Origin: a virus
Length of the DNA stretch: 22,751 bases
Virus record (IMG/VR): IMGVR_UViG_3300021961_000683
Location: 1-22,751 of that record
Strand: one strand, 5' to 3'
Under the pieces are notes generated by a model. It did not search any database. It saw only the letters and a program-made list of their open reading frames with translations, and was not told the origin of the DNA. The position numbers and the translations under genes are program-made. Within the stretch, counting starts at the first letter, position 1; every line of letters begins with the position of its first letter. Shown here piece by piece: positions 4,781-20,175 of the stretch.

Positions 4781-6358
4781 TTATAAGTATTTTTGATAGT
4801 ATTTTTCTAAAGTTTCTTCTTCTAAATAAACATCTTCCAATTCAAAATCATAATTTATATCAAAAGCTATAGCGTCTTGCATAGCTTCTTGTAATTCAGC
4901 TTCATCGTACTCGTAATTATCAAAAAGGTCTATAGAGCTAGCCTTGGCTACGTCCTTGTCCGCTTGCTTGTAACTCTCTTTAACTTTTCCCCCTCTTAGC
5001 ATTTTTAAAAACATATTCACTCTAGCCATAGCCCACTGCCCTCTTGTTTTTCCGGGACGATGAGAAGAAGAAAAGGCTCCAGCGCCCCTACGATAAACTT
5101 TTTTTAATTGAGATAAAGTAACTTTTTTAGAATACTTTTCGTTATGTTCTTTTACTTTATTTTTTAATGCTTCAGTCACTTGATTGGAAAACTGAATGGC
5201 TGCTTCTTGAGAAGCTATTGTACTTTTTTTATCTTTTTTATTTAACTGTTCTACAGCTTTTTCTTTTGCATCTGGTTTTGTTCCAGCAGATCCGGGCTCA
5301 TTTTTATCAGACCCTTTTTTTCTTTCCTCTGGTTTTGCTGGATTCTGGGCAGAAGATTTTGGTCCGGGACGAGAAGACATTGAATCATCTATTTTCTTTT
5401 TATATGAAACTGACCATCTTTTTTTACTTAATGAGTTTGGATTATCTATGGCAGCTTCCTCTTTCCCTATCTTTTGTAAATATTCTGGAGACTTCGAAAC
5501 AATTTGACCTTCCGCCCAACAAGAACCAGAATTTAAAGCCATATAAGAAACAGAATAACTACTAAAAGTTTGAACTTCCATTTCTGGATTTTGATCTATT
5601 GGAGTATATTCTACATTTTTAACGGAGCCAATACATCCATACATAGAACAAGAAGAATCTATATTTTTTACAATATCACCTTCTTGAAATTCGGCATGTA
5701 CTTCCACCTCTTCAAATTGGTGCTGCTCTTGAAATGAACCGGAAGATGTATTCTTATATTCTTCCAAGCAACTTTTAAAAACTTCCTTAGCACTTCCTTT
5801 TTTATTAGCCATGCAGTTTTTAATATATTCGGATACGTTCTGTTCTCCATTTTTAACTATGATAGATTTATATTCTTCAATTTCGGCTTCGCTATCAAAG
5901 TATTCTATATTATAATTTAATTCAGTAATGTCTTCCGCGCAGCTTTGACAATCATCGTCTTCGGTTATTTCTTGAGCAAGCGCAAACTCTGGATTTAAAC
6001 TCAATAAATCTTCTTGCTCTGCAAATGTTTCACCATCCCATTCCTCTTCTGCTTTTAATAAATTAGTGACACTAGGATTGCTCCAAAACTTGCAACTCCA
6101 ATAACGAGCTTTCCATTTTGGCCCCGGATTATCACAATTGTGCCTTGCTCTAAAATTTTTTCTGCGATTTGGATCATCGCGCTTTATCTCCATGTTCGGA
6201 TCACCAAAGTTAACTTTAACGACATTGCCTTTGTCATTCTTGACGTAAACAGAAAATTTCTTTGGCCCACCAGAAGTTCTAAAGGGCTTGTTAAGGGATT
6301 TACCCTTATTTTTTTCTGCTATTAATTGCTCACTAAAGTCAATTTCATCCATATTCAT
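4781..6358 (-). CDS. Multi-module prohead/structural protein
   Basis: The protein has about 525 residues from ATG 6358; an in-frame GTG at 6367 and an ATG at 6352 are alternatives. Three modules are visible. Module A (about 30-92) reads GPKKFSVYVKN, VKVNFGDPNMEIKRDDP, FRARHNCDNPGP, KARYWSCKFW, with conserved Cys/Trp. Module B (about 226-297) is an SH3-like segment starting GDIVKNIDSSCSMYGCIGSV. Module C (about 412-472) is basic: LKKVYRRGAGAFSSSHRPGK then GQWAMARVNMFL and SYKQADKDV. I recall each module in head-region proteins of T4-like marine phages, usually annotated as structural or prohead core proteins. A disordered Pro/Lys/Gly-rich linker (about 328-378) separates B from C and the C-terminus is strongly acidic. 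No enzyme motif was recognised; a role in the prohead core is inferred from position next to the protease. Confidence 0.7.
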   Translation of the reverse strand: MNMDEIDFSEQLIAEKNKGKSLNKPFRTSGGPKKFSVYVKNDKGNVVKVNFGDPNMEIKRDDPNRRKNFRARHNCDNPGPKWKARYWSCKFWSNPSVTNLLKAEEEWDGETFAEQEDLLSLNPEFALAQEITEDDDCQSCAEDITELNYNIEYFDSEAEIEEYKSIIVKNGEQNVSEYIKNCMANKKGSAKEVFKSCLEEYKNTSSGSFQEQHQFEEVEVHAEFQEGDIVKNIDSSCSMYGCIGSVKNVEYTPIDQNPEMEVQTFSSYSVSYMALNSGSCWAEGQIVSKSPEYLQKIGKEEAAIDNPNSLSKKRWSVSYKKKIDDSMSSRPGPKSSAQNPAKPEERKKGSDKNEPGSAGTKPDAKEKAVEQLNKKDKKSTIASQEAAIQFSNQVTEALKNKVKEHNEKYSKKVTLSQLKKVYRRGAGAFSSSHRPGKTRGQWAMARVNMFLKMLRGGKVKESYKQADKDVAKASSIDLFDNYEYDEAELQEAMQDAIAFDINYDFELEDVYLEEETLEKYYQKYL

Positions 6359-6403
6359 ATAATACACAATATTTAAATATAATTATTATAATTTTTTAAA
6401 AAA

Positions 6404-10925: not shown

Positions 10926-12896
10926 TTAAGCATCTTTAATGCTATTGTATAAAATACTAGCCAAATAAAAATCTAATCCATGTGTTGCCGCTATATCAGT
11001 AATTTCGGAAACTCTATTTGAATTTTTATCAATTGGATTGTCAAGATAGAAGTTTATATTTTCATTCCACTTGTCTGGAGCTTCATTTGCTATAATGGTT
11101 TTAACTATTTGGTCTATAATAAAATCATCTTTTTCTGATAATTTTCTAATTTTAGATTTTTTCTTGTAAGATTTTACAACTTCAGACTCAAGGCTTCCAG
11201 CTTTTATCATGTTTTCTTTAACTTTAGAAAGACTGTATTTTGCATTTGAGTTATTGCCAATTGGTGAAACAGTTTCCTTGCTCTTTGGAATGCCAGTTGT
11301 CCCAGATGGCCTACCTGAATTATGAAGTGAATTTCCCGGTATTTCAGGCTCATCATCTTTTCCATCTGTAGGAGCAACAGACGGCGCTCCTATTAACGGC
11401 TGATAAAGACCCTCTTTTCTAAAACCAGTAAATTCTCTTTGACTTTCGATAGAAGAAGATTGTTCTGGTAAGTTGTGGGTTTCAATAGCTTCAAGAAGTT
11501 CTTTTGGCGTGAGAATACCTAACTCAGCAAGTCTCGTATACACTTTGGCGTATGTTCCATTGTCCTTTAAATCAATTTCTTGTAAAATTGGCGTTGGATA
11601 GCTCTTGAATCCCATTTCTCTAGAAATTCTTTTTATTTCTGGATACAAGAAATTCTGCAAAAACGCCTGTCTAGCTTGCTTTAATCTCGCTACGAAAACT
11701 TCTATTTTAGCTGTTTGATTTGCATATTTTTCTCCACCGGCAAATACATTATTCAATCCGATGTTAATATCTCTATCAAATATTTCGTATTTTTTTGGAT
11801 CTAAAAGATCTGAAATTTGAGGTATTACAAATTGAACTTTAGTGGTATAATCAGCAACCAAAACCCTGCCAACAGATTGATTTTCAAAAAGTCTTTGTAA
11901 AGCAATTAAATTTTTATTATTTATTCCTCCTTTTTCTGGCTCTGTTCCTGTTGTAACAAGCAAAACTGCTTGCTGCATACAACGAGCAACAGCCATGTCC
12001 ATTTTCTTCATTTCGTATTTGAAGTTAATGTCTTCAAGTACTGGATAACCCATAGGCACACTAAATGGCTCGTAATCTTGTTTCTTATAGAAAACCGCTT
12101 GCATTTTTTCACGGTTAAGAGGAAACCAAATCTGAATATTAAATTTTTTAATTATTTGATCTTTTACATTGTCAGGCAGAGAATCTAAAAACTCCTTATC
12201 TTCTTCAGTTTGAGGAAAACGAAGTCTTTGTAATTCATAATCATTTAATAATTTATAATAAGTAGGTATACCAAAGTTTATTGTTCCCTCAATCTGAATA
12301 TCTGCTGGATTTAATATTACGTATCTAATGGGCAATTTATATTGCTTCGCCGCATAGGAAGATTTTGAAGATCCAAATAATTGGACGATTCGTGAAACGT
12401 CTTGTTGTTTTAATTTAGTATCAAATCTATATAAAAATACATTTCCACTTCTAAAATACTCACGGAAAAACTGGTCTTGTAAATTCCATAGATTTATTTT
12501 TTTGAAAAATGCATCAAAAAAAGATCTGGATTTAGCATTGCCTCCTTTGAAGTTTATGTCACTGACACTGAACTCGGTCATCAAATCAATTGTATTTCTA
12601 AATACAGAAAAATTATAATAAGCTTTTTGACATAATTCTATTGCATCTTTTACTGTTACTCCGCTTCTATTATTTATTTTTACTCCGCTGCTATACGGAA
12701 TCAAACCGTCTTCAATATTCTTAAATCTATCTGTTCGCTCAATTGAAGAAGAGATATTTCTCCTAGTTGATGTTTCCCTCGCAGCAGTTGTTGATGCTAC
12801 AGACTTGTAAGCTAAAACGTCATCTATCGAATAAGGAGATCCATCTTCGTTAGATGTATTTTTTGTATTTTTATTATTTTTATTCGCCGCTTTCAT
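10926..12896 (-). CDS. Portal protein
   Basis: The protein has 656 residues and would form the dodecameric ring at the packaging vertex, where the terminase docks. The sequence has the course of a portal: a disordered Lys/Asn/Ser-rich N-terminus, a helical entry region (CQKAYYNFSVFRNTIDLMTE), an FREYFRSGNVFLYRFDT strand pair, a central NPADIQIEG segment, a helical stem region near DRDINIGLNNVFAGGEKYAN and ARLKQARQAFLQNFLYPEIK, and the typical LAELGILTPKELLEAIETHNLP. A Pro/Gly/Ser-rich linker (about 500-560) leads to an extra helical C-terminal domain of about 95 residues, so it is longer than T4 gp20. The start overlaps the previous stop as TAATG, implying translational coupling. Confidence 0.92.
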   Translation of the reverse strand: MKAANKNNKNTKNTSNEDGSPYSIDDVLAYKSVASTTAARETSTRRNISSSIERTDRFKNIEDGLIPYSSGVKINNRSGVTVKDAIELCQKAYYNFSVFRNTIDLMTEFSVSDINFKGGNAKSRSFFDAFFKKINLWNLQDQFFREYFRSGNVFLYRFDTKLKQQDVSRIVQLFGSSKSSYAAKQYKLPIRYVILNPADIQIEGTINFGIPTYYKLLNDYELQRLRFPQTEEDKEFLDSLPDNVKDQIIKKFNIQIWFPLNREKMQAVFYKKQDYEPFSVPMGYPVLEDINFKYEMKKMDMAVARCMQQAVLLVTTGTEPEKGGINNKNLIALQRLFENQSVGRVLVADYTTKVQFVIPQISDLLDPKKYEIFDRDINIGLNNVFAGGEKYANQTAKIEVFVARLKQARQAFLQNFLYPEIKRISREMGFKSYPTPILQEIDLKDNGTYAKVYTRLAELGILTPKELLEAIETHNLPEQSSSIESQREFTGFRKEGLYQPLIGAPSVAPTDGKDDEPEIPGNSLHNSGRPSGTTGIPKSKETVSPIGNNSNAKYSLSKVKENMIKAGSLESEVVKSYKKKSKIRKLSEKDDFIIDQIVKTIIANEAPDKWNENINFYLDNPIDKNSNRVSEITDIAATHGLDFYLASILYNSIKDA

Positions 12897-15169
12897 TATA
12901 CAGTATAGTCAGTTGAGTATGTACCTAATATTATAGGGTTTGATCCTCTATTATTAAAACGAACAAATGTAAATAATGCTGAATGTCCTTGAGTCGTTGT
13001 AAATAATGGATTTGTATTTGCCAAAGGCCAATAAATTCCGTTCATCCATTGAAACGGAGCATCAGATACACTTGCTGGAGAGGCTCCAGAATTATTAATT
13101 TTTAAAATATAGACCGCACCCGTCAAAAATGTTCCAGTATTGAATTCTATAACGACTTCATTTCCTGTAATATAATATTCTTGAGCGTCGTAAGTCGAAA
13201 AATCTATTGTATTTGTAACGTGTGATGGTAAAAGAGAATTATTTCCAGAAACGCTATATTGAACAGTGCCACGATCTCCCTTTTCTCCTTGTATGCCTCC
13301 AGAACATAATATGGACCACCTTAATCCACTTATTCCATCTCCGTTTTCGTTTACATCCACAATTGGGTTATAATCTCCCGCATCAGACGTATATCTAACA
13401 AAAGACGATCCTGACAAAAATACAACATCATCTTCATAGTAAGTGGTCCCAATATCAGTCCAAATTCCTTTAAAATTATTTGAAAGGTTTCCTTCTGGTC
13501 CGATTGATCCGCTAGCGCCAGATGGTCCAATTTGACCTCCGCTAGCCAATAAACCCCATACATAGATTGGATTGCCAGTTATAGAATATAAAATTGGATC
13601 TAAATTAGAATTTCCAGAAAGAGCCAAATAACAGTTGCCACTTCTTGTTACAATATCTTGTGCCGAATAAGATGTAGAACTACTCCATATTCCAGAATAT
13701 TTATTAGATAAAGAACCTGCTGGTCCAGTGGCTCCAACGGCTCCGTTTGCACCATCGGCTCCTCCTGATGCAAGAACATACCAATATGTATCTACGTAAC
13801 TTTCTGGATTATAATTTAAATTACTTCCTATTATTGAAGTGTAACTACTTTTATTATAATAGACTACATCTCCTTGGTCATAAGAAACGCTTGCATTCCA
13901 AAGACCTTGAAAAGCATTTGATATATCTCCAGCATCGCCTTTTTCTCCTTGGATACCAGCATCTCCTTGTGGGCCTTGTGGACCTGTATCTCCTTGATCT
14001 CCTTGATCTCCTTTTGGACCTCTAAGACCTGATGCACCACTTGGACCCTGTGGGCCAACCGGAGCATGATCATAAATAGAAAAATCTCCAAGAACATAAT
14101 GTTCTTCTTCTTCAAATCTTTCACCGTTATATAAATCTCTGACTTCAAAACCCCACTTGTATTGGCCAGTAGAGGCATTAAGACTTAATGTAACATAATA
14201 ATTCAGTCTTCCAGATCCTTCTTCATAAGAAGAAAAAAGATCAACTTCATCTATTGTTCCACCAGATGGAAGAGCGGTATATCCTTCGGGTATAATATAT
14301 CTACCTGTTGGGGTTCCAGTATTATATAAAGTAAATTTTAAATATCTACCTGTATCAGATTCACCAGTTAGCCAATTAGTTTGGGTTAAAATTGGGGTGT
14401 AAGGATAAATTTCAGAAGGAATATAGTCTTGTAAAGTATTTAATCCCCCTTGTTGAATTACGTAACTGAATCCCTTTACAAAATTTAAATCTGGATTATA
14501 ACCATTGATACCATTCACTGAAGTATATGGATCAAATTCTCCAGAATAAATTCCGCTTATCTGTTCAAATATGTAATTTATTCCTCCTACCTGTCCCTGC
14601 ACCCCTCGCTCTCCTGTACCTCCAGCTACTTGTATCGTATCACCCGTCGTTCCGTTATCGAATAAGAAATTTATTAAAGTATAAGCTCCAGAGCCGCTAC
14701 TTACATATCCTGTTACTGAAACTCCAGACGCTCCAGATTCACCAGCAACGCCACTAGCTCCAGATGGAATACTTATAGGATCTAAAATTCCACCGTTACT
14801 TAATAGAAGATAAAAAGATGAATATCCGCCATTTGCAAAACCCGAACCAGAAGCTCCAGTTATTCCTATACCAGAAGCTCCAGATGGTCCGGTTTCACCG
14901 ACTGGACCCACGATACCCTCTGAACCTGTTATTAGTTGATCGTTTAGGTAAAGACCGCTTTCTCCAATACTTAAGTAATTATTTCCTAAATAAATTCCAG
15001 ACTCTAGCCACAAATCTTTAAAAGCTATTCCAGAACCACCTAAATTTTGCCCTAAACCAGTTGGAGTTATATTCCCAGTTATGTTAAGACCAGATTTAGA
15101 AATAACATCTAAAACAAACCCACTAAATTCAGGTTGGTTTACTTGTCTTAATTGTACTAAATTAGCCAT
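12896..15169 (-). CDS. Collagen-like/carbohydrate-binding mosaic virion protein
   Basis: The protein has about 757 residues from ATG 15169 (MANLVQLRQVNQPEF); a TTG at 15184 would add five residues and is less likely. In order it shows a fibre-like N-terminus (about 1-80), short Gly-X-Y stretches (GPVGETGPSGASG), a unique beta-rich domain (about 195-365), a longer collagen block (about 371-415, GPKGDQGDQGDTGPQGPQGD) and three related modules of 50-60 residues. Each module reads roughly 'F.GIW....Y..DDVV...S..Y....SN.NP....W.LLASGG', like CBM5/12-type chitin/carbohydrate-binding repeats, and they are separated by further Gly-X-Y. A C-terminal beta domain ends the protein (ITGNEVVIEFNTGTF, then LKINNSGASP). 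A trimeric adhesive fibre is the natural reading. Its place between large terminase and portal is unusual. Confidence 0.8.
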   Translation of the reverse strand: MANLVQLRQVNQPEFSGFVLDVISKSGLNITGNITPTGLGQNLGGSGIAFKDLWLESGIYLGNNYLSIGESGLYLNDQLITGSEGIVGPVGETGPSGASGIGITGASGSGFANGGYSSFYLLLSNGGILDPISIPSGASGVAGESGASGVSVTGYVSSGSGAYTLINFLFDNGTTGDTIQVAGGTGERGVQGQVGGINYIFEQISGIYSGEFDPYTSVNGINGYNPDLNFVKGFSYVIQQGGLNTLQDYIPSEIYPYTPILTQTNWLTGESDTGRYLKFTLYNTGTPTGRYIIPEGYTALPSGGTIDEVDLFSSYEEGSGRLNYYVTLSLNASTGQYKWGFEVRDLYNGERFEEEEHYVLGDFSIYDHAPVGPQGPSGASGLRGPKGDQGDQGDTGPQGPQGDAGIQGEKGDAGDISNAFQGLWNASVSYDQGDVVYYNKSSYTSIIGSNLNYNPESYVDTYWYVLASGGADGANGAVGATGPAGSLSNKYSGIWSSSTSYSAQDIVTRSGNCYLALSGNSNLDPILYSITGNPIYVWGLLASGGQIGPSGASGSIGPEGNLSNNFKGIWTDIGTTYYEDDVVFLSGSSFVRYTSDAGDYNPIVDVNENGDGISGLRWSILCSGGIQGEKGDRGTVQYSVSGNNSLLPSHVTNTIDFSTYDAQEYYITGNEVVIEFNTGTFLTGAVYILKINNSGASPASVSDAPFQWMNGIYWPLANTNPLFTTTQGHSALFTFVRFNNRGSNPIILGTYSTDYTV
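13295..13909 (-). repeat. Three carbohydrate-binding-like modules in tandem
   Basis: Three diverged coding modules lie at about 13760-13909, 13535-13696 and 13295-13474. Shared features are an opening GLW or GIW, a central Y..(Q/E)D(D/I)V segment, an aromatic strand, an NP or DP turn and a closing W..L.SGG. They resemble CBM5/12-type sugar-binding repeats and alternate with short Gly-X-Y linkers. Boundaries are approximate. Confidence 0.6.
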
Positions 15170-15189
15170 ATGCCTTATATACAAATAAA

Positions 15190-15197
15190 ATTACACT
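15190..15197 (-). promoter_or_regulatory. AGTGTAAT motif upstream of the collagen-like gene
   Basis: AGTGTAAT overlaps the end of the large terminase stop region and lies 20 bases before ATG 15169. The spacer contains TATTTGTATAT, an 11-mer also found just before the plus-strand gene at 20211. It is a candidate transcription or leader signal. Confidence 0.4.
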
Positions 15198-17044
15198 TAA
15201 ATTAAAAAAGGAACAAAAGTTTCTTGATTTTCTTCTTTATGTTCAGTCATTTCATAATAACTTTTCATCGCCCAGCAGCCCAACAATAAAGCCGTATAGC
15301 TATCTCTTCTCGCCCTGTCTTCTCCTGTTTCTCTATTTAAGTGTTGAGGTAAATCGAAGTTCTGAGTACCTCTTGCATTTGATTTTACTTCTATTAATGC
15401 ACACTGTTTCTTAATTAAATCTACATTATATCCAATATGTTCTACAAAATCCCCCTTACTTTCGACGTTTTTTATGTTTATCAACGCCATATCAAGATGG
15501 GTGTTTATCATTTTATCGAAAGAGCTAGCCCTTGCTTGAGCTTTGGATGCGAACCATATCTTTTTGTAGTCTATAAGCCCCTGAAGATATTCATTTGATT
15601 TACGAATAAAGTCATTGCTACTAAAAACTTGTTTATATGCTATTTTTCCGATTGTACAATTCAATTCTCTTTTTAATCTTCTTATCTCCTCTTGTCTATC
15701 TACTCCTTCTTTTGAACTTTCAAAATCTATGAATTTTATGTTTATTTTATTATCTATAAAGAGTTCGTGTTCATTTGCAGCGTCAATAAATTGATATCCA
15801 GCATTATCAATACATATAAGAGTAATATTAAAATTAGTTAATAAATAATAAAAATATAAAATATGATCTTTTAGGTCTTTACCATGCTCTGCATAACTAT
15901 TTACTATTATTCCTTGTTTTGATTGTTCGTCCAACTCTATAACACACATTGCAAAATCATCAGAGTTTGGAGCTTTTGAGAAAGACGGGTCGATTGCTAA
16001 TATGTATTTCTTGTCGGAATCGCCTTTTATTTTGCAGGTAGGTTCTTCTCCATCAGGTATAGTGCAAGCGTACATTTTCTTTCCTGAAAAATATCCTTCG
16101 CTGCCGTCTGTGAAATTAGCACAATATTCTCTTAGGAAAATCGCATTTGAAGTTCCACCACTTTCGGCTTCTTCTATAACAGACTTGTTTATCATATGTT
16201 TTGGGATAGAATCCCAAGCCAGTTGTGATATAAAATAGGTAGCTTCCGAGCCTTCCTCTGGAGTATTTATCTTTTTTATCCAATCAGAATAAGTAACGTA
16301 AAGATTTTCAAAAGTATAAGATGCAGAAGATAAAGCTATGAATTTGGTTTTGTTTTCGAAGACTGTCCTTTCTTCCTCTTTCATCAGTCTCTGCTGCACC
16401 ATTTTATTTTCTATTTCCATTATACTCATGCGCTCATCCATGTCTTGCGGTGCTGTCAAGAAAGGAATTAAAACAGTATCGATAATTTCTCTGCTCATCA
16501 GCAAATACTCATCAATCAGGAGAACGTTCGCTCGAAAACCACGAATTTTTTCTCCATTCAGCGGAATCGCTGTTATGGTAGATCCATTATCTAATTTCCA
16601 CTCATGAATGTCATTTCTTTTTGTAATATTTTGCCCAAAAGCTTGCCTTAACAAAACGGCGTCTTTTCTCTTTACTAATTCTTCAATTTTATTGAAAATG
16701 AAACGTGCAGTTCTAAAAGTGGGTCCAGCTATTAGAATTTTTGAATTTGGATAAAAAAGTGCTTGCATGATGCAGAATATTGAAGCGATAAACGTCTTTG
16801 CACAACCGCGACCCCACACGCACATGCTATAATTTCTATTCAGCATTCCTCTTATAGTTATCTCTTGATAAGGGGCTAATTTTATACCGCATAGCATTTC
16901 TATAGTAAATCCGACATTATTTCTCAAAAATTCATACAATGTAATCTTTGCAGTTTTATCATCAAGCTCTCCCTTTAAATTCTCCAAAAAATATTTATTT
17001 ATATCTTTGTATGGTTTAGTTTTGTATTGACCTTCGTACCACAT
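15197..17044 (-). CDS. terL: Terminase large subunit (packaging ATPase-nuclease)
   Basis: The protein has 615 residues and would power DNA translocation into the prohead and cut the concatemer. The ATPase shows LAPYQ at about 56-60 (adenine-binding region), a Walker A-like WGRGCAKTF at 77-85, a Walker B VLLIDE at 174-179 and a coupling segment FIALSSASY at about 235-243. The nuclease (RNase H fold) shows ILAIDPSFS with Asp352, LICIDNAGYQF with Asp413, and a late LDMALINIKN segment carrying a third Asp. A helical charged insert (about 201-232, ENKMVQQRLMKEEER) follows Walker B. Size and layout match T4 gp17-type terminases. The ATG at 17044 starts two bases after the stop of the ERCC4 nuclease. 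The protein is complete, with all key residues visible. Confidence 0.97.
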   Translation of the reverse strand: MWYEGQYKTKPYKDINKYFLENLKGELDDKTAKITLYEFLRNNVGFTIEMLCGIKLAPYQEITIRGMLNRNYSMCVWGRGCAKTFIASIFCIMQALFYPNSKILIAGPTFRTARFIFNKIEELVKRKDAVLLRQAFGQNITKRNDIHEWKLDNGSTITAIPLNGEKIRGFRANVLLIDEYLLMSREIIDTVLIPFLTAPQDMDERMSIMEIENKMVQQRLMKEEERTVFENKTKFIALSSASYTFENLYVTYSDWIKKINTPEEGSEATYFISQLAWDSIPKHMINKSVIEEAESGGTSNAIFLREYCANFTDGSEGYFSGKKMYACTIPDGEEPTCKIKGDSDKKYILAIDPSFSKAPNSDDFAMCVIELDEQSKQGIIVNSYAEHGKDLKDHILYFYYLLTNFNITLICIDNAGYQFIDAANEHELFIDNKINIKFIDFESSKEGVDRQEEIRRLKRELNCTIGKIAYKQVFSSNDFIRKSNEYLQGLIDYKKIWFASKAQARASSFDKMINTHLDMALINIKNVESKGDFVEHIGYNVDLIKKQCALIEVKSNARGTQNFDLPQHLNRETGEDRARRDSYTALLLGCWAMKSYYEMTEHKEENQETFVPFLI

Positions 17045-17046
17045 TA

Positions 17047-17988
17047 TTAAAGCCCTTTCATATCATAAAGAAGTTGCATGTCGTATTTTTTATAAGCATC
17101 TCCAGATGCATAAATTTTTTCCATAACACGAACGCATTCTTTTCTGCCTTGCACAAACAAAAACTGTATATTATCATATGTTTGAATAAGATCTCTTATA
17201 TTATGCATGATATAGTCTGGAGTAGCTTTTATTTTGCTGAATACATCATTTAAATATTTTATTTTATAAACATCTTCATATTTATTTTCAACAATAACTA
17301 TCATGTATTTTTTAGCTTCTACAGATTTTTCGATTTCCCTTTTGAATCTTTCAAATCCTTTAGATAAAGTATTAAAAAGATCATTTAATGATTTTCTTTC
17401 AAAAACAAGATCGTTGAAAGAATCATCTGATCCATTAGCCATGCTATAATCTCCGAATTTAAGGGTTCCGACTTCTGATTTTATACTTTTGAATATTAAA
17501 GGCTTCTTTTCCCTCGTATCTATAATAATTTTATTGTTATCTTTTAATTCACAGTCAGGAAGACATTTTATATAAGAAAATTTATTTTTAAATCCCAAAG
17601 ACTCACACGTTTTGTAATAGTCTCCGAATAAATTGTGCAAATAATTAACAGAAGGTATCATTACTGATCTTAACTCCACTTGGGTTGGAGTATAAATAAG
17701 ATTTTTAGTTCTTTTTCTTCTAGAAAGTATTTCCAAACAATAATCTTTGGCTACTTGAGGTGTTTGTTTGTTTAACCAGTATCTGAGATTGTTTTTATTA
17801 TTGAAATCACTGTTTAAATAGAATTCTCTATTTTTAAAAAGTATTATGTCTCCAGTATGCAAATCATGTTTGGGTATATAAGTCTGGTAATATTCGGCAT
17901 AAGTTATCTTGTGAACTCTAAGATGTTTTAAAAAATCTTTTGAGTCGTTAAACAATGTTTGACATATACTGCACTTTTCCTTATCCAT
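17047..17988 (-). CDS. ERCC4/XPF-type nuclease with N-terminal zinc finger
   Basis: The protein has 313 residues. At the N-terminus Cys6, Cys9, His22 and His26 form a C2H2 finger (CSICQTLF...HLRVH). A linker of about 125 residues contains a basic stretch RRKRTK. From about 153 the ERCC4 nuclease core appears: IIIDTREKKPL (Asp157, Arg159, Glu160), LKFGDYSM (Asp180), then VFERKSLNDLF, an exact ERKxxxD motif with Glu197, Lys199 and Asp203, and GFERFKREIEK. XPF/Mus81-family nucleases use these residues to cut branched or flap DNA. No helix-hairpin-helix pair is evident at the end. It overlaps the preceding gene by eight bases and precedes terL by two, so it probably resolves replication branches before packaging or assists cutting. 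That role is inferred; the fold and active site are clear. Confidence 0.88.
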   Translation of the reverse strand: MDKEKCSICQTLFNDSKDFLKHLRVHKITYAEYYQTYIPKHDLHTGDIILFKNREFYLNSDFNNKNNLRYWLNKQTPQVAKDYCLEILSRRKRTKNLIYTPTQVELRSVMIPSVNYLHNLFGDYYKTCESLGFKNKFSYIKCLPDCELKDNNKIIIDTREKKPLIFKSIKSEVGTLKFGDYSMANGSDDSFNDLVFERKSLNDLFNTLSKGFERFKREIEKSVEAKKYMIVIVENKYEDVYKIKYLNDVFSKIKATPDYIMHNIRDLIQTYDNIQFLFVQGRKECVRVMEKIYASGDAYKKYDMQLLYDMKGL

Positions 17989-19075
17989 TTATAGCTTCAT
18001 TTTTTGTTAATCCGAATATCTTTGTCTTTACGTCTTCCATAGAAGAAAGCCGGTCAACTTCTTCTTCAAGCGCTTTTTTCTGCATTTCTCCGATACGTAA
18101 AAGCTGATTTCTCTTTTGTTCGTCTTTCCAATATTCTATAAGATTGAGAATACTTGCATTTTCCTTAAGTTGTTTGCCAAGCCTGTCGCTCCTTTTTTGC
18201 TTTAACGAGTTGACCAAATCCTGCTGGCGTTTGACGCATGAGTTATATTCCTGTTGAGCTTTGCCAATAGCTTCTACCAATGACATGGCAATTCTGGCGT
18301 TTTCTTCTCCGTCTTCATTTGTTTGATTGTCAAGAATTCCCTGTAATCTCTCAGAACGAGCCTGTATTCGGTTAGCCATAACAGCTTCAGTAGCCAACAA
18401 AATATATTGGTCTACTTCTTCTTCTGTTAAATCAGACTTGTCGTAAGTATATCTTATAAAAGTAGATTCAAATAAAACTTTATCTTTTTCTGTTTCAAAA
18501 CTATTGATTTGATTTATAAATCTAAAGTTATGAAGGTAGCCTATGAGGGATTCTACTTCTTTTTTTATTCTATTTGTTATAGACTCCCTGTTTATTCCGT
18601 TCAAAACATATTTATTTACTCTGGCTACTGCTCTATCTAGTGTATTTGGCGGTTTCCAGCCGTTTTCAGATTCTTGAGATGAAGAACTTGTATTTTTAGG
18701 AGTTCCGAGTTGAGATTTTATATAATCACTTACAGTAATTGATTCTATATTTAAATTAGTTATGCTATTATTATTGAAAATAATTTTAGCCATTTCCACG
18801 CAAGATGTGTTTTGATAGTTGTTTTGAATGAACTCTTTCTGTTCGTCCGTTAAATCTAATTTTTCTTTTGCAACATAAACTTGGGCGGCTCTTGGAATTA
18901 TCTTATATGTAGCTAAATATTTTTTAATTGCCCTTCCGTATTTGCTTCGCCCATCAAATTCTTGACCAAAAACATCTTGCGTAAGTTTTGTCAAAGAAGG
19001 AGGACTACTTGAATTTTCGTTCCAAATTTTTATTATCAGAGCTTTTTGCTCGTCATTTAAATCAAATGTATCCAT
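17981..19075 (-). CDS. Probable terminase small subunit / duplicated-HTH DNA-binding protein
   Basis: The protein has 364 residues. Two related N-terminal units are visible: LNDEQKALIIKIWNENS...LTQDVFGQE...RSKYGRAIKKYLA (about 6-54) and LTDEQKEFIQNNYQNTS...AKIIFNN...ITVSDYIKSQL (about 74-125). Each looks like a helix-turn-helix with a DEQK opening. A polar Ser-rich linker follows, then a long helical region with a conserved-looking LDRAVARVNKY and, near the end, coiled-coil heptads (about 265-350). DNA-binding units plus an oligomerising coiled coil, placed just ahead of the nuclease and terL, fit a small terminase that recognises phage DNA. It is larger than T4 gp16. No sequence signature proves it; a transcription or replication factor is the alternative. 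Confidence 0.6.
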   Translation of the reverse strand: MDTFDLNDEQKALIIKIWNENSSSPPSLTKLTQDVFGQEFDGRSKYGRAIKKYLATYKIIPRAAQVYVAKEKLDLTDEQKEFIQNNYQNTSCVEMAKIIFNNNSITNLNIESITVSDYIKSQLGTPKNTSSSSQESENGWKPPNTLDRAVARVNKYVLNGINRESITNRIKKEVESLIGYLHNFRFINQINSFETEKDKVLFESTFIRYTYDKSDLTEEEVDQYILLATEAVMANRIQARSERLQGILDNQTNEDGEENARIAMSLVEAIGKAQQEYNSCVKRQQDLVNSLKQKRSDRLGKQLKENASILNLIEYWKDEQKRNQLLRIGEMQKKALEEEVDRLSSMEDVKTKIFGLTKNEAING

Positions 19076-19081
19076 AAAAAT

Positions 19082-19768
19082 TTAATAAATATCTAAATCT
19101 CCGTCGTCCATTGCTTTTTTTATTTTTTTTACTATTGATTTTGTGATATTCTTTATTTGTCTATAACCCGGACTTCTGTTTTTTTCAGAAGTTTTAAGTC
19201 CGAGTTTTTTAGCTACTTTACTTTCACTTTCATTGTTTATATATATTGATTCGTATACAATCCATTCGATAGACTTTAAAAGCGATTTTATCTTTTTATG
19301 AAATTCAGGATTTATTTCTTCATTCGAATAATTTCCGACTTGCTTATCATGTATTTCGTGTTCATGATTTTCAATAGATAAAGGCATTTTTATTTCACAA
19401 GCATCTCTTTTTTTATTGTACCATTTTTTGAACATTTTACATTGATCACTTTGCGTTTTATAAACACTACATCCTCCATCTGGTAATGCCGCAGCACATT
19501 TTAAACATGGCTTTGTATAATTGCTATAATTATTTCTTACAATATTTTTTATTTGATTTGATATTATTCTGTTTAGCCAAGGCTCTATAGGCTTTGTTGC
19601 ATCGTATTGACTCCATTTTTGGAATATATGCATTTTTAAAATTTGAGATACATCGTCAAAGTCCATCCAAGTGATAGAATTTAAAAGCCATCTGCTTCTC
19701 CTTTTTTCTATCTCCACATTTATACAAGGGAGAAAACTCTCAAATTTTTTAAGCTGCTTTTTATTCAT
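19082..19768 (-). CDS. Phage sigma-70-family-like factor with Cys-rich insert
   Basis: The protein has 228 residues. Residues about 34-80 look like sigma region 2: DFDDVSQILKMHIFQKWSQY, then PIEPWLNRIISNQIKNIVRN. Immediately after, Cys88 and Cys91 (PCLKC), Cys100, Cys110 and possibly Cys124 form a likely zinc site in the place where a normal sigma has its linker. The C-terminal part (about 165-222) reads IYINNESESKVAKKLGL...GYRQIKNITKSIVKKIKKAM, like a region 4 helix-turn-helix for -35 contact. By analogy with T4 gp55 it could redirect host RNA polymerase to late genes. Its start overlaps the TGA of the zinc-ribbon gene by four bases (ATGA), so the two are co-translated. Sigma-like is moderately sure; late specificity is inferred. 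Confidence 0.72.
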   Translation of the reverse strand: MNKKQLKKFESFLPCINVEIEKRRSRWLLNSITWMDFDDVSQILKMHIFQKWSQYDATKPIEPWLNRIISNQIKNIVRNNYSNYTKPCLKCAAALPDGGCSVYKTQSDQCKMFKKWYNKKRDACEIKMPLSIENHEHEIHDKQVGNYSNEEINPEFHKKIKSLLKSIEWIVYESIYINNESESKVAKKLGLKTSEKNRSPGYRQIKNITKSIVKKIKKAMDDGDLDIY

Positions 19769-20175
19769 TCAATTTCAGAAGGACTTTGTCCTCTAGTTTT
19801 AAACCCAGATTCTTTTCGATATTCTTCAATAAAGGATTCTTCCGAAATATTATGGTTTTTTGATTCTGGGTCTTGTGGCGAGTATGGCATTGGATTTTTC
19901 ATTATAGAACCCAAGCTTTGAGGTTTATTTTGAGAAAAATCAGCTTCGAATTCAAGTTCATCAATTTCCAGATTAAATTCCTGCACATCGATACCGTCCT
20001 CCGGGTCGTAATTATAATTTTTTCCTGATTTACTACCAAACAGTCTGGGTGCTGGAGTTGCTTCCGGCTTTGGGATACTTGCTTTCTTAAAAAAAGAATA
20101 TCCGCAACTCATACAGAATTTAGCAGTTGGGTCAGGGGACTTTTTTCCACATTCAGGGCAATAAACTATTTTCAT
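19765..20175 (-). CDS. Zinc-ribbon protein with acidic tail
   Basis: The protein has 136 residues. The N-terminus is a four-cysteine zinc ribbon: Cys6 and Cys9 (YCPECGKK) and Cys21 and Cys24 (FCMSCGYS). A Pro/Ala linker (PKPEATPAPRLFG) follows, then an acidic middle (DGIDVQEFNLEIDELEFEAD) and a polar end (GFKTRGQSPSEIE). There is no enzymatic motif. It is the first gene of the minus-strand block and is translationally coupled to the sigma-like factor. Small zinc ribbons that touch RNA polymerase or nucleic acid are common, so a co-activator or adaptor for that sigma factor is plausible, functionally like T4 gp33 but without visible similarity to it. The role is inferred. Confidence 0.75.
   Translation of the reverse strand: MKIVYCPECGKKSPDPTAKFCMSCGYSFFKKASIPKPEATPAPRLFGSKSGKNYNYDPEDGIDVQEFNLEIDELEFEADFSQNKPQSLGSIMKNPMPYSPQDPESKNHNISEESFIEEYRKESGFKTRGQSPSEIE

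Follow-up and report, generated by a model that had tools for sequence, protein, structure and literature searches.

Identification of an ERCC4 nuclease gene

The locus raises the question of what a nuclease of the XPF/ERCC4 family, which is mainly archaeal and eukaryotic, may do among the DNA packaging genes of a phage. The window, that is the whole stretch of 22,751 nt that was analysed (IMG/VR record IMGVR_UViG_3300021961_000683), contains on its minus strand an ORF (positions 17047 to 17988, ATG start) whose 313-aa product comprises an N-terminal finger, a helical middle part and then an ERCC4 nuclease domain. This domain (residues 156 to 291; 17116 to 17523, minus strand) matches Pfam PF02732 with E=4.8e-12 and 46.4 bits, the cut-off being 24, and was matched by Pfam in all 31 relatives (31/31); the 313-aa protein also matches an ERCC4-type nuclease in PHROG (E=5e-14). 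The AlphaFold2 model, computed from an alignment of 31 relatives, has a mean pLDDT of 91.9 and a pTM of 0.87. When this model was compared to the PDB with Foldseek, the top match was the Hef nuclease (E=1.2e-5, target TM 0.69) followed by XPF; Hef was found again by a profile search against PDB sequences (E=1.5e-5), and a halovirus ERCC4 protein was the top Foldseek match among viral models.

The catalytic box (GD...ERKSLND, residues 179 to 203; 17380 to 17454, minus strand) reads G179-D180...E197-R198-K199-SLN-D203 and matches the GDXnERKX3D motif. D180, E197, R198, K199 and D203 are invariant in 173/173 complete homologues, which correspond to 92 clusters at 90% identity, as are D157, R159, E160 and E218. 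By profile, predicted fold and motif, the window protein is a member of the ERCC4/XPF nuclease superfamily, and membership of the T4 endonuclease VII (gp49) family was discarded since the protein matches ERCC4. The sequence-only reading had recognised an ERCC4/XPF nuclease with a full ERKxxxD site and had proposed structure prediction and a fold search as a check; the ERCC4 fold was indeed recovered in this way, with Pfam, AlphaFold2, Foldseek and residue conservation in agreement.

Domain layout and comparison with related nucleases

In the model, the finger (residues 1 to 27) is followed by helices (about 30 to 135), by the nuclease and by short helices at the end. The window protein has the ERCC4 fold and the GDXnERKX3D motif in common with XPF, Mus81 and Hef, the closest structure being the Hef nuclease domain (1J22), but it is predicted to be without their canonical architecture and it belongs to a phage packaging operon. 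Indeed, neither the model nor Pfam reveals a helicase-type N-terminus as found in XPF and Hef, the finger and the helices occurring there instead, and an (HhH)2 domain is missing both after the nuclease in the model and among the Pfam matches of the 313-aa protein. The same nuclease domain occurs in ERCC4 nucleases of haloviruses (HSTV-2, HRTV-25, HF2; PHROG 3490) with 27-42% identity over the matched part, which is restricted to the nuclease and leaves the finger and the middle domain of the window protein unmatched; that of HRTV-25 is a short, single-domain protein with no annotated terminase gene within 5 kb.

The Cys2His2 finger (residues 4 to 27; 17908 to 17979, minus strand) has the spacing C6-x2-C9-x12-H22-x3-H26. 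Taken alone it stays under the Pfam cut-offs (zf-met, E=0.0027), yet it recurs in most relatives and a profile search matched zinc-finger chains in the PDB. The four zinc ligands, all present in the window protein, are complete in 64 of the 92 clusters and incomplete in 28. A large degenerate subclade reads ICKVDGKEF...LHxALKGY, with C9, H22 and H26 replaced, while its active site and gene order are unchanged; two changes are enough to account for the loss of ligands on a tree from which the finger region was left out. The finger is thus probably ancestral and dispensable. Because zinc ligands were lost in 28/92 clusters, it is not an essential targeting device, and the suggestion of the sequence-only reading that it targets the nuclease to DNA is not borne out, three of the four ligands having disappeared from a large subclade in which order and active site are intact.

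That reading had been right in describing a finger and an ERCC4 domain but had overlooked the conserved domain between them (residues about 30 to 135 in the model). By conservation and model, this all-helical middle domain extends over residues about 30 to 140 (17569 to 17901, minus strand), belongs to no confident family and is more conserved than the finger, with Y33, D42, I49, Y57, F62, N63, W71, E105, P112 and Y124 invariant. A weak Pfam match to HNH_repeat was obtained in the middle region of one of the 31 relatives; DUF3916 was rejected, having matched the window protein only, under the cut-off. Judging from conservation, the middle domain would be a likelier place than the finger for binding DNA or a partner. 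Beyond the nuclease domain, a near-invariant C-terminal motif, DLQxxYDxxxL, was observed (residues 303 to 313; 17047 to 17082), and this motif could be a docking peptide.

Gene order around the nuclease

The nuclease ORF overlaps the upstream gene (17981 to 19075, minus strand) by 8 nt and is separated by a 2-nt gap from terL (15197 to 17044, minus strand, starting at 17044), the product of which has an ATPase and the residues of an RNase H-like nuclease (Terminase_6N, E=9.7e-6; phrog_2, E=5e-24). This upholds the earlier placement of the nuclease between a probable small terminase gene and terL. The upstream gene encodes 364 aa that are modelled by AlphaFold2 as helical N-terminal units with a long coiled coil after them, a shape that fits an HTH part and oligomerisation helices next to terL. 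A fold search with this product returned nothing significant, HK97 TerS being among the insignificant matches; position and predicted shape make it a probable small terminase (terS). In TerL, D352, D413 and D581, putative catalytic acids by likeness to T4 gp17, are conserved in all complete copies, which rules out that the ERCC4 nuclease stands in for a dead TerL nuclease.

Further upstream are a sigma-70 region-2-like gene (19082 to 19768, minus strand; E=9e-5, barely below the cut-off, and synteny) and a gene for a zinc-ribbon protein (19765 to 20175, minus strand; profile match and synteny), the latter being the first in the conserved order. Both genes (19082 to 20175) precede terS in most clade loci, suggesting that a late sigma factor is expressed together with the packaging genes. 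After terL, the next conserved gene encodes the portal protein (10926 to 12896, minus strand; phrog_16240, E=3e-5, and synteny). A gene for a collagen-like protein (12896 to 15184) separates terL from the portal gene in the window, as it does in some but not all relatives, and a structural-region protein with a DUF5824 match (4781 to 6367; E=1.9e-9) is encoded near the capsid genes in part of the clade.

The wider order is therefore zinc ribbon, sigma-like, terS, nuclease, terL and portal. Searching viral contigs with TerL yielded 80 loci, 79 of which have the nuclease upstream of terL; on the 80th contig, terL begins at base 17. A search with a nuclease profile gave at least 565 confirmed stretches, and a divergent TerL search widened the set further. 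The gene is fixed beside the terminase genes, as is the case for packaging-associated nucleases: terL is located downstream in 177/177 distinct viral homologues of the nuclease, and the same terS-like gene upstream in 172/177, the remaining five having at most 61 upstream bases. In most of the 177, the nuclease and terL overlap or are at most 30 bases apart, a 4-base overlap being the commonest situation. The terS-nuclease-terL order holds down to about 40% identity while the other surrounding genes come and go. Contact between the nuclease and terL is not absolute since two extra ORFs separate them in one contig (L098:2317-4132). These ORFs are related to each other, encode about 300 aa each with a WYFIH-PKCAG start, and look sulfotransferase-like by eye, the first being without a Pfam match. 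Chance can be excluded, as the arrangement is kept in all 177 distinct homologues and the catalytic residues in all 173 complete ones.

Relationships of the phage group

The comparison with T4 made in the sequence-only reading did not hold for the one large relative surveyed (174 kb), which encodes a DnaE-type Pol III alpha, DnaB and a class II RNR, together with a RecA-family protein, a dUTPase, a RuvB-like ATPase and a RecB-like PD-(D/E)XK protein; its replication genes are not the T4 set and rule out a T4-like phage for this relative. TerL is at best about 22-30% identical to that of cultured phages, the nearest being Slash, Stahl and MaeS. No cultured member of the clade was found in searches with the nuclease and the terS candidate; the latter, taken from the close relative L117, matched none of 50,697 phage records. 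One clade contig (L163) is included in a Flavobacteriales MAG. No signal of homology linked the gene preceding terL in Stahl and MaeS to the window nuclease, or that in Stahl to the terS candidate. Directly upstream of terL, Bacillus phage Slash has a gene for an HNH_3 endonuclease (L286:13199-13774) that is absent in Stahl and is likely a mobile gene occupying the same slot.

Distribution of other resolvases

The terS-nuclease-terL order is thus kept in related phages and, as the sequence-only reading had anticipated, no gp49-like gene accompanied it in the records searched: endonuclease VII, RusA and Hjc were each found in 0/24 viral records and RuvC in 0/31, the RuvC search detecting its target in Slash, Stahl and MaeS as a positive control. 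The clade records reach 203 kb, but the two largest show no terminal repeats and are possibly incomplete, which leaves the absence of a further resolvase unproven. Searches for T7 endonuclease I and Pox A22 gave no matches and, their controls being silent as well, carry no weight. Neither of the outcomes that the sequence-only reading had named as contrary to it, namely a fold other than ERCC4 and another resolvase in the absence of a conserved order, was encountered.

With Pfam, a single ERCC4 gene was detected in 22 of 24 viral records, and in G027 and G028 a divergent copy missed by Pfam was found with the clade profile. Stahl and MaeS have no ERCC4 nuclease detectable with the ERCC4 PHROG profile. 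In Slashvirus and MaeS phages, which are nearest to the clade by terL among cultured phages, RuvC likely fills the same niche; it differs in having an RNase H fold and a gene far from terL, and its distribution is complementary to that of the ERCC4 gene. From sequence searches, the pattern fits one resolvase displacing another. To our knowledge, a RuvB homologue is unusual in phages; a RuvB-like ATPase with a RuvB_C winged helix occurs without RuvC in 7/24 viral records (G002-G006, G018 and G029; loci L271-L277), which would fit junction processing. GIY-YIG nuclease genes are present in 2/14 clade records, and these nucleases or the RecB-like PD-(D/E)XK protein could be alternative junction resolvers. 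The distribution of ERCC4 and RuvC resembles that of RuvC, EndoVII and RusA in jumbo phages, which is complementary as well, and in several phages no resolvase has been recognised (PMC7824862).

Possible role in DNA packaging

A nuclease located between packaging-motor genes with all its catalytic residues conserved suggests the cutting of branched or tangled DNA so that it can be packed. Family membership, a conserved active site and the fixed terS/terL linkage together point to a nuclease that works with the packaging motor. With evenly balanced confidence, we favour the reading that it is catalytically active and structure-specific and clears branched DNA. The nuclease would probably be transcribed together with terS and terL, may use its middle domain or C-terminus to dock on the terminase or on the portal, and would cut Y-forks, flaps and Holliday junctions in replicated concatemers, thereby keeping the motor from stalling. 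A precedent is T4 gp49, which binds the portal and releases branched DNA that has stalled in the course of packaging (PMC9958956; PMC3485210). The role proposed here is alike, namely clearing branched DNA at the motor, but the two nucleases belong to unrelated families. Gene 49 of T4 lies away from the terminase genes, so that position alone does not point to a resolvase. The (HhH)2 domain aids junction binding by XPF, Mus81 and Hef, and its lack in the model counts against branch clearing.

The main rival to branch clearing is assistance to the terminase, the protein being an ERCC4 counterpart of HK97 gp74 that stimulates or performs the cos/pac or headful cut. It would account for the constant placement of the gene between terS and terL, with few-base overlaps or gaps in most loci, and the finger and helical middle domain could confer some sequence preference; it also has a precedent in HK97, in which gp74, an HNH protein, promotes cos cleavage with TerL (PMC9410871). 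Like gp74 and related HNH packaging nucleases, the window protein would be a separate nuclease helping the terminase, though gp74 has an HNH fold and acts at cos. Against it, ERCC4 enzymes are known to cut by DNA structure and not by sequence, a large subclade has lost the finger, and the nuclease residues of TerL are intact in all complete copies; this last point is not decisive as HK97 TerL also retains its own. Branch clearing is preferred because of the RuvC-complementary pattern, the RuvB-like gene and the structure-specific family, and terminase assistance is considered possible but doubtful. A general recombination or repair nuclease that merely sits in a late operon is unlikely: the HRTV-25 gene has no annotated terminase gene nearby and a Bacillus phage study counts an ERCC4 nuclease among repair genes (PMC10535572), but the placement between terS and terL is without exception down to about 40% identity while other genes vary.

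Two further readings were weighed. T4 gp4, a TnsA-like head-completion nuclease, is virion-associated and does not belong to the ERCC4 family; a comparable trimming or completion of packaged DNA ends appears quite improbable here, nothing indicating a virion role, even though the gene is in the head-gene cluster and T4-type phages need a second nuclease besides TerL for packaging (PMC7824862). A selfish endonuclease of the homing type, inserted among the terminase genes, might be evoked by the finger, by the HNH_repeat match (a homing-endonuclease-associated profile) in one relative and by the HNH_3 gene of Slash in the same slot, missing in Stahl. Homing genes are, however, patchy in distribution, whereas this nuclease has an invariant active site and occurs in every clade locus with enough flank, no empty site being found among these; its universal presence makes this reading so improbable that it was discarded.

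Finally, it may be proposed tentatively that an XPF-family nuclease displaced RuvC in these phages and became obligatory in the terminase operon, possibly together with the RuvB-like ATPase, by which resolution and packaging would be physically coupled.

Significance

Each of the elements described is known, but a finger, a middle domain and an ERCC4 nuclease fixed between terS and terL form a combination unreported in the literature searched, in which no ERCC4 nuclease placed with terminase genes was found. Branched DNA stalls packaging motors, a problem that phages counter with unrelated nucleases. Here, hundreds of phage contigs from the environment, with no cultured representative, encode an XPF-family enzyme next to the motor genes. 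If branch clearing is its role, it would represent a further independent solution to motor stalling and, as far as we know, the first ERCC4 enzyme to serve this purpose. In a large group of uncultured tailed phages, an ERCC4 nuclease with all its catalytic residues conserved is thus fixed between the two packaging-motor genes.
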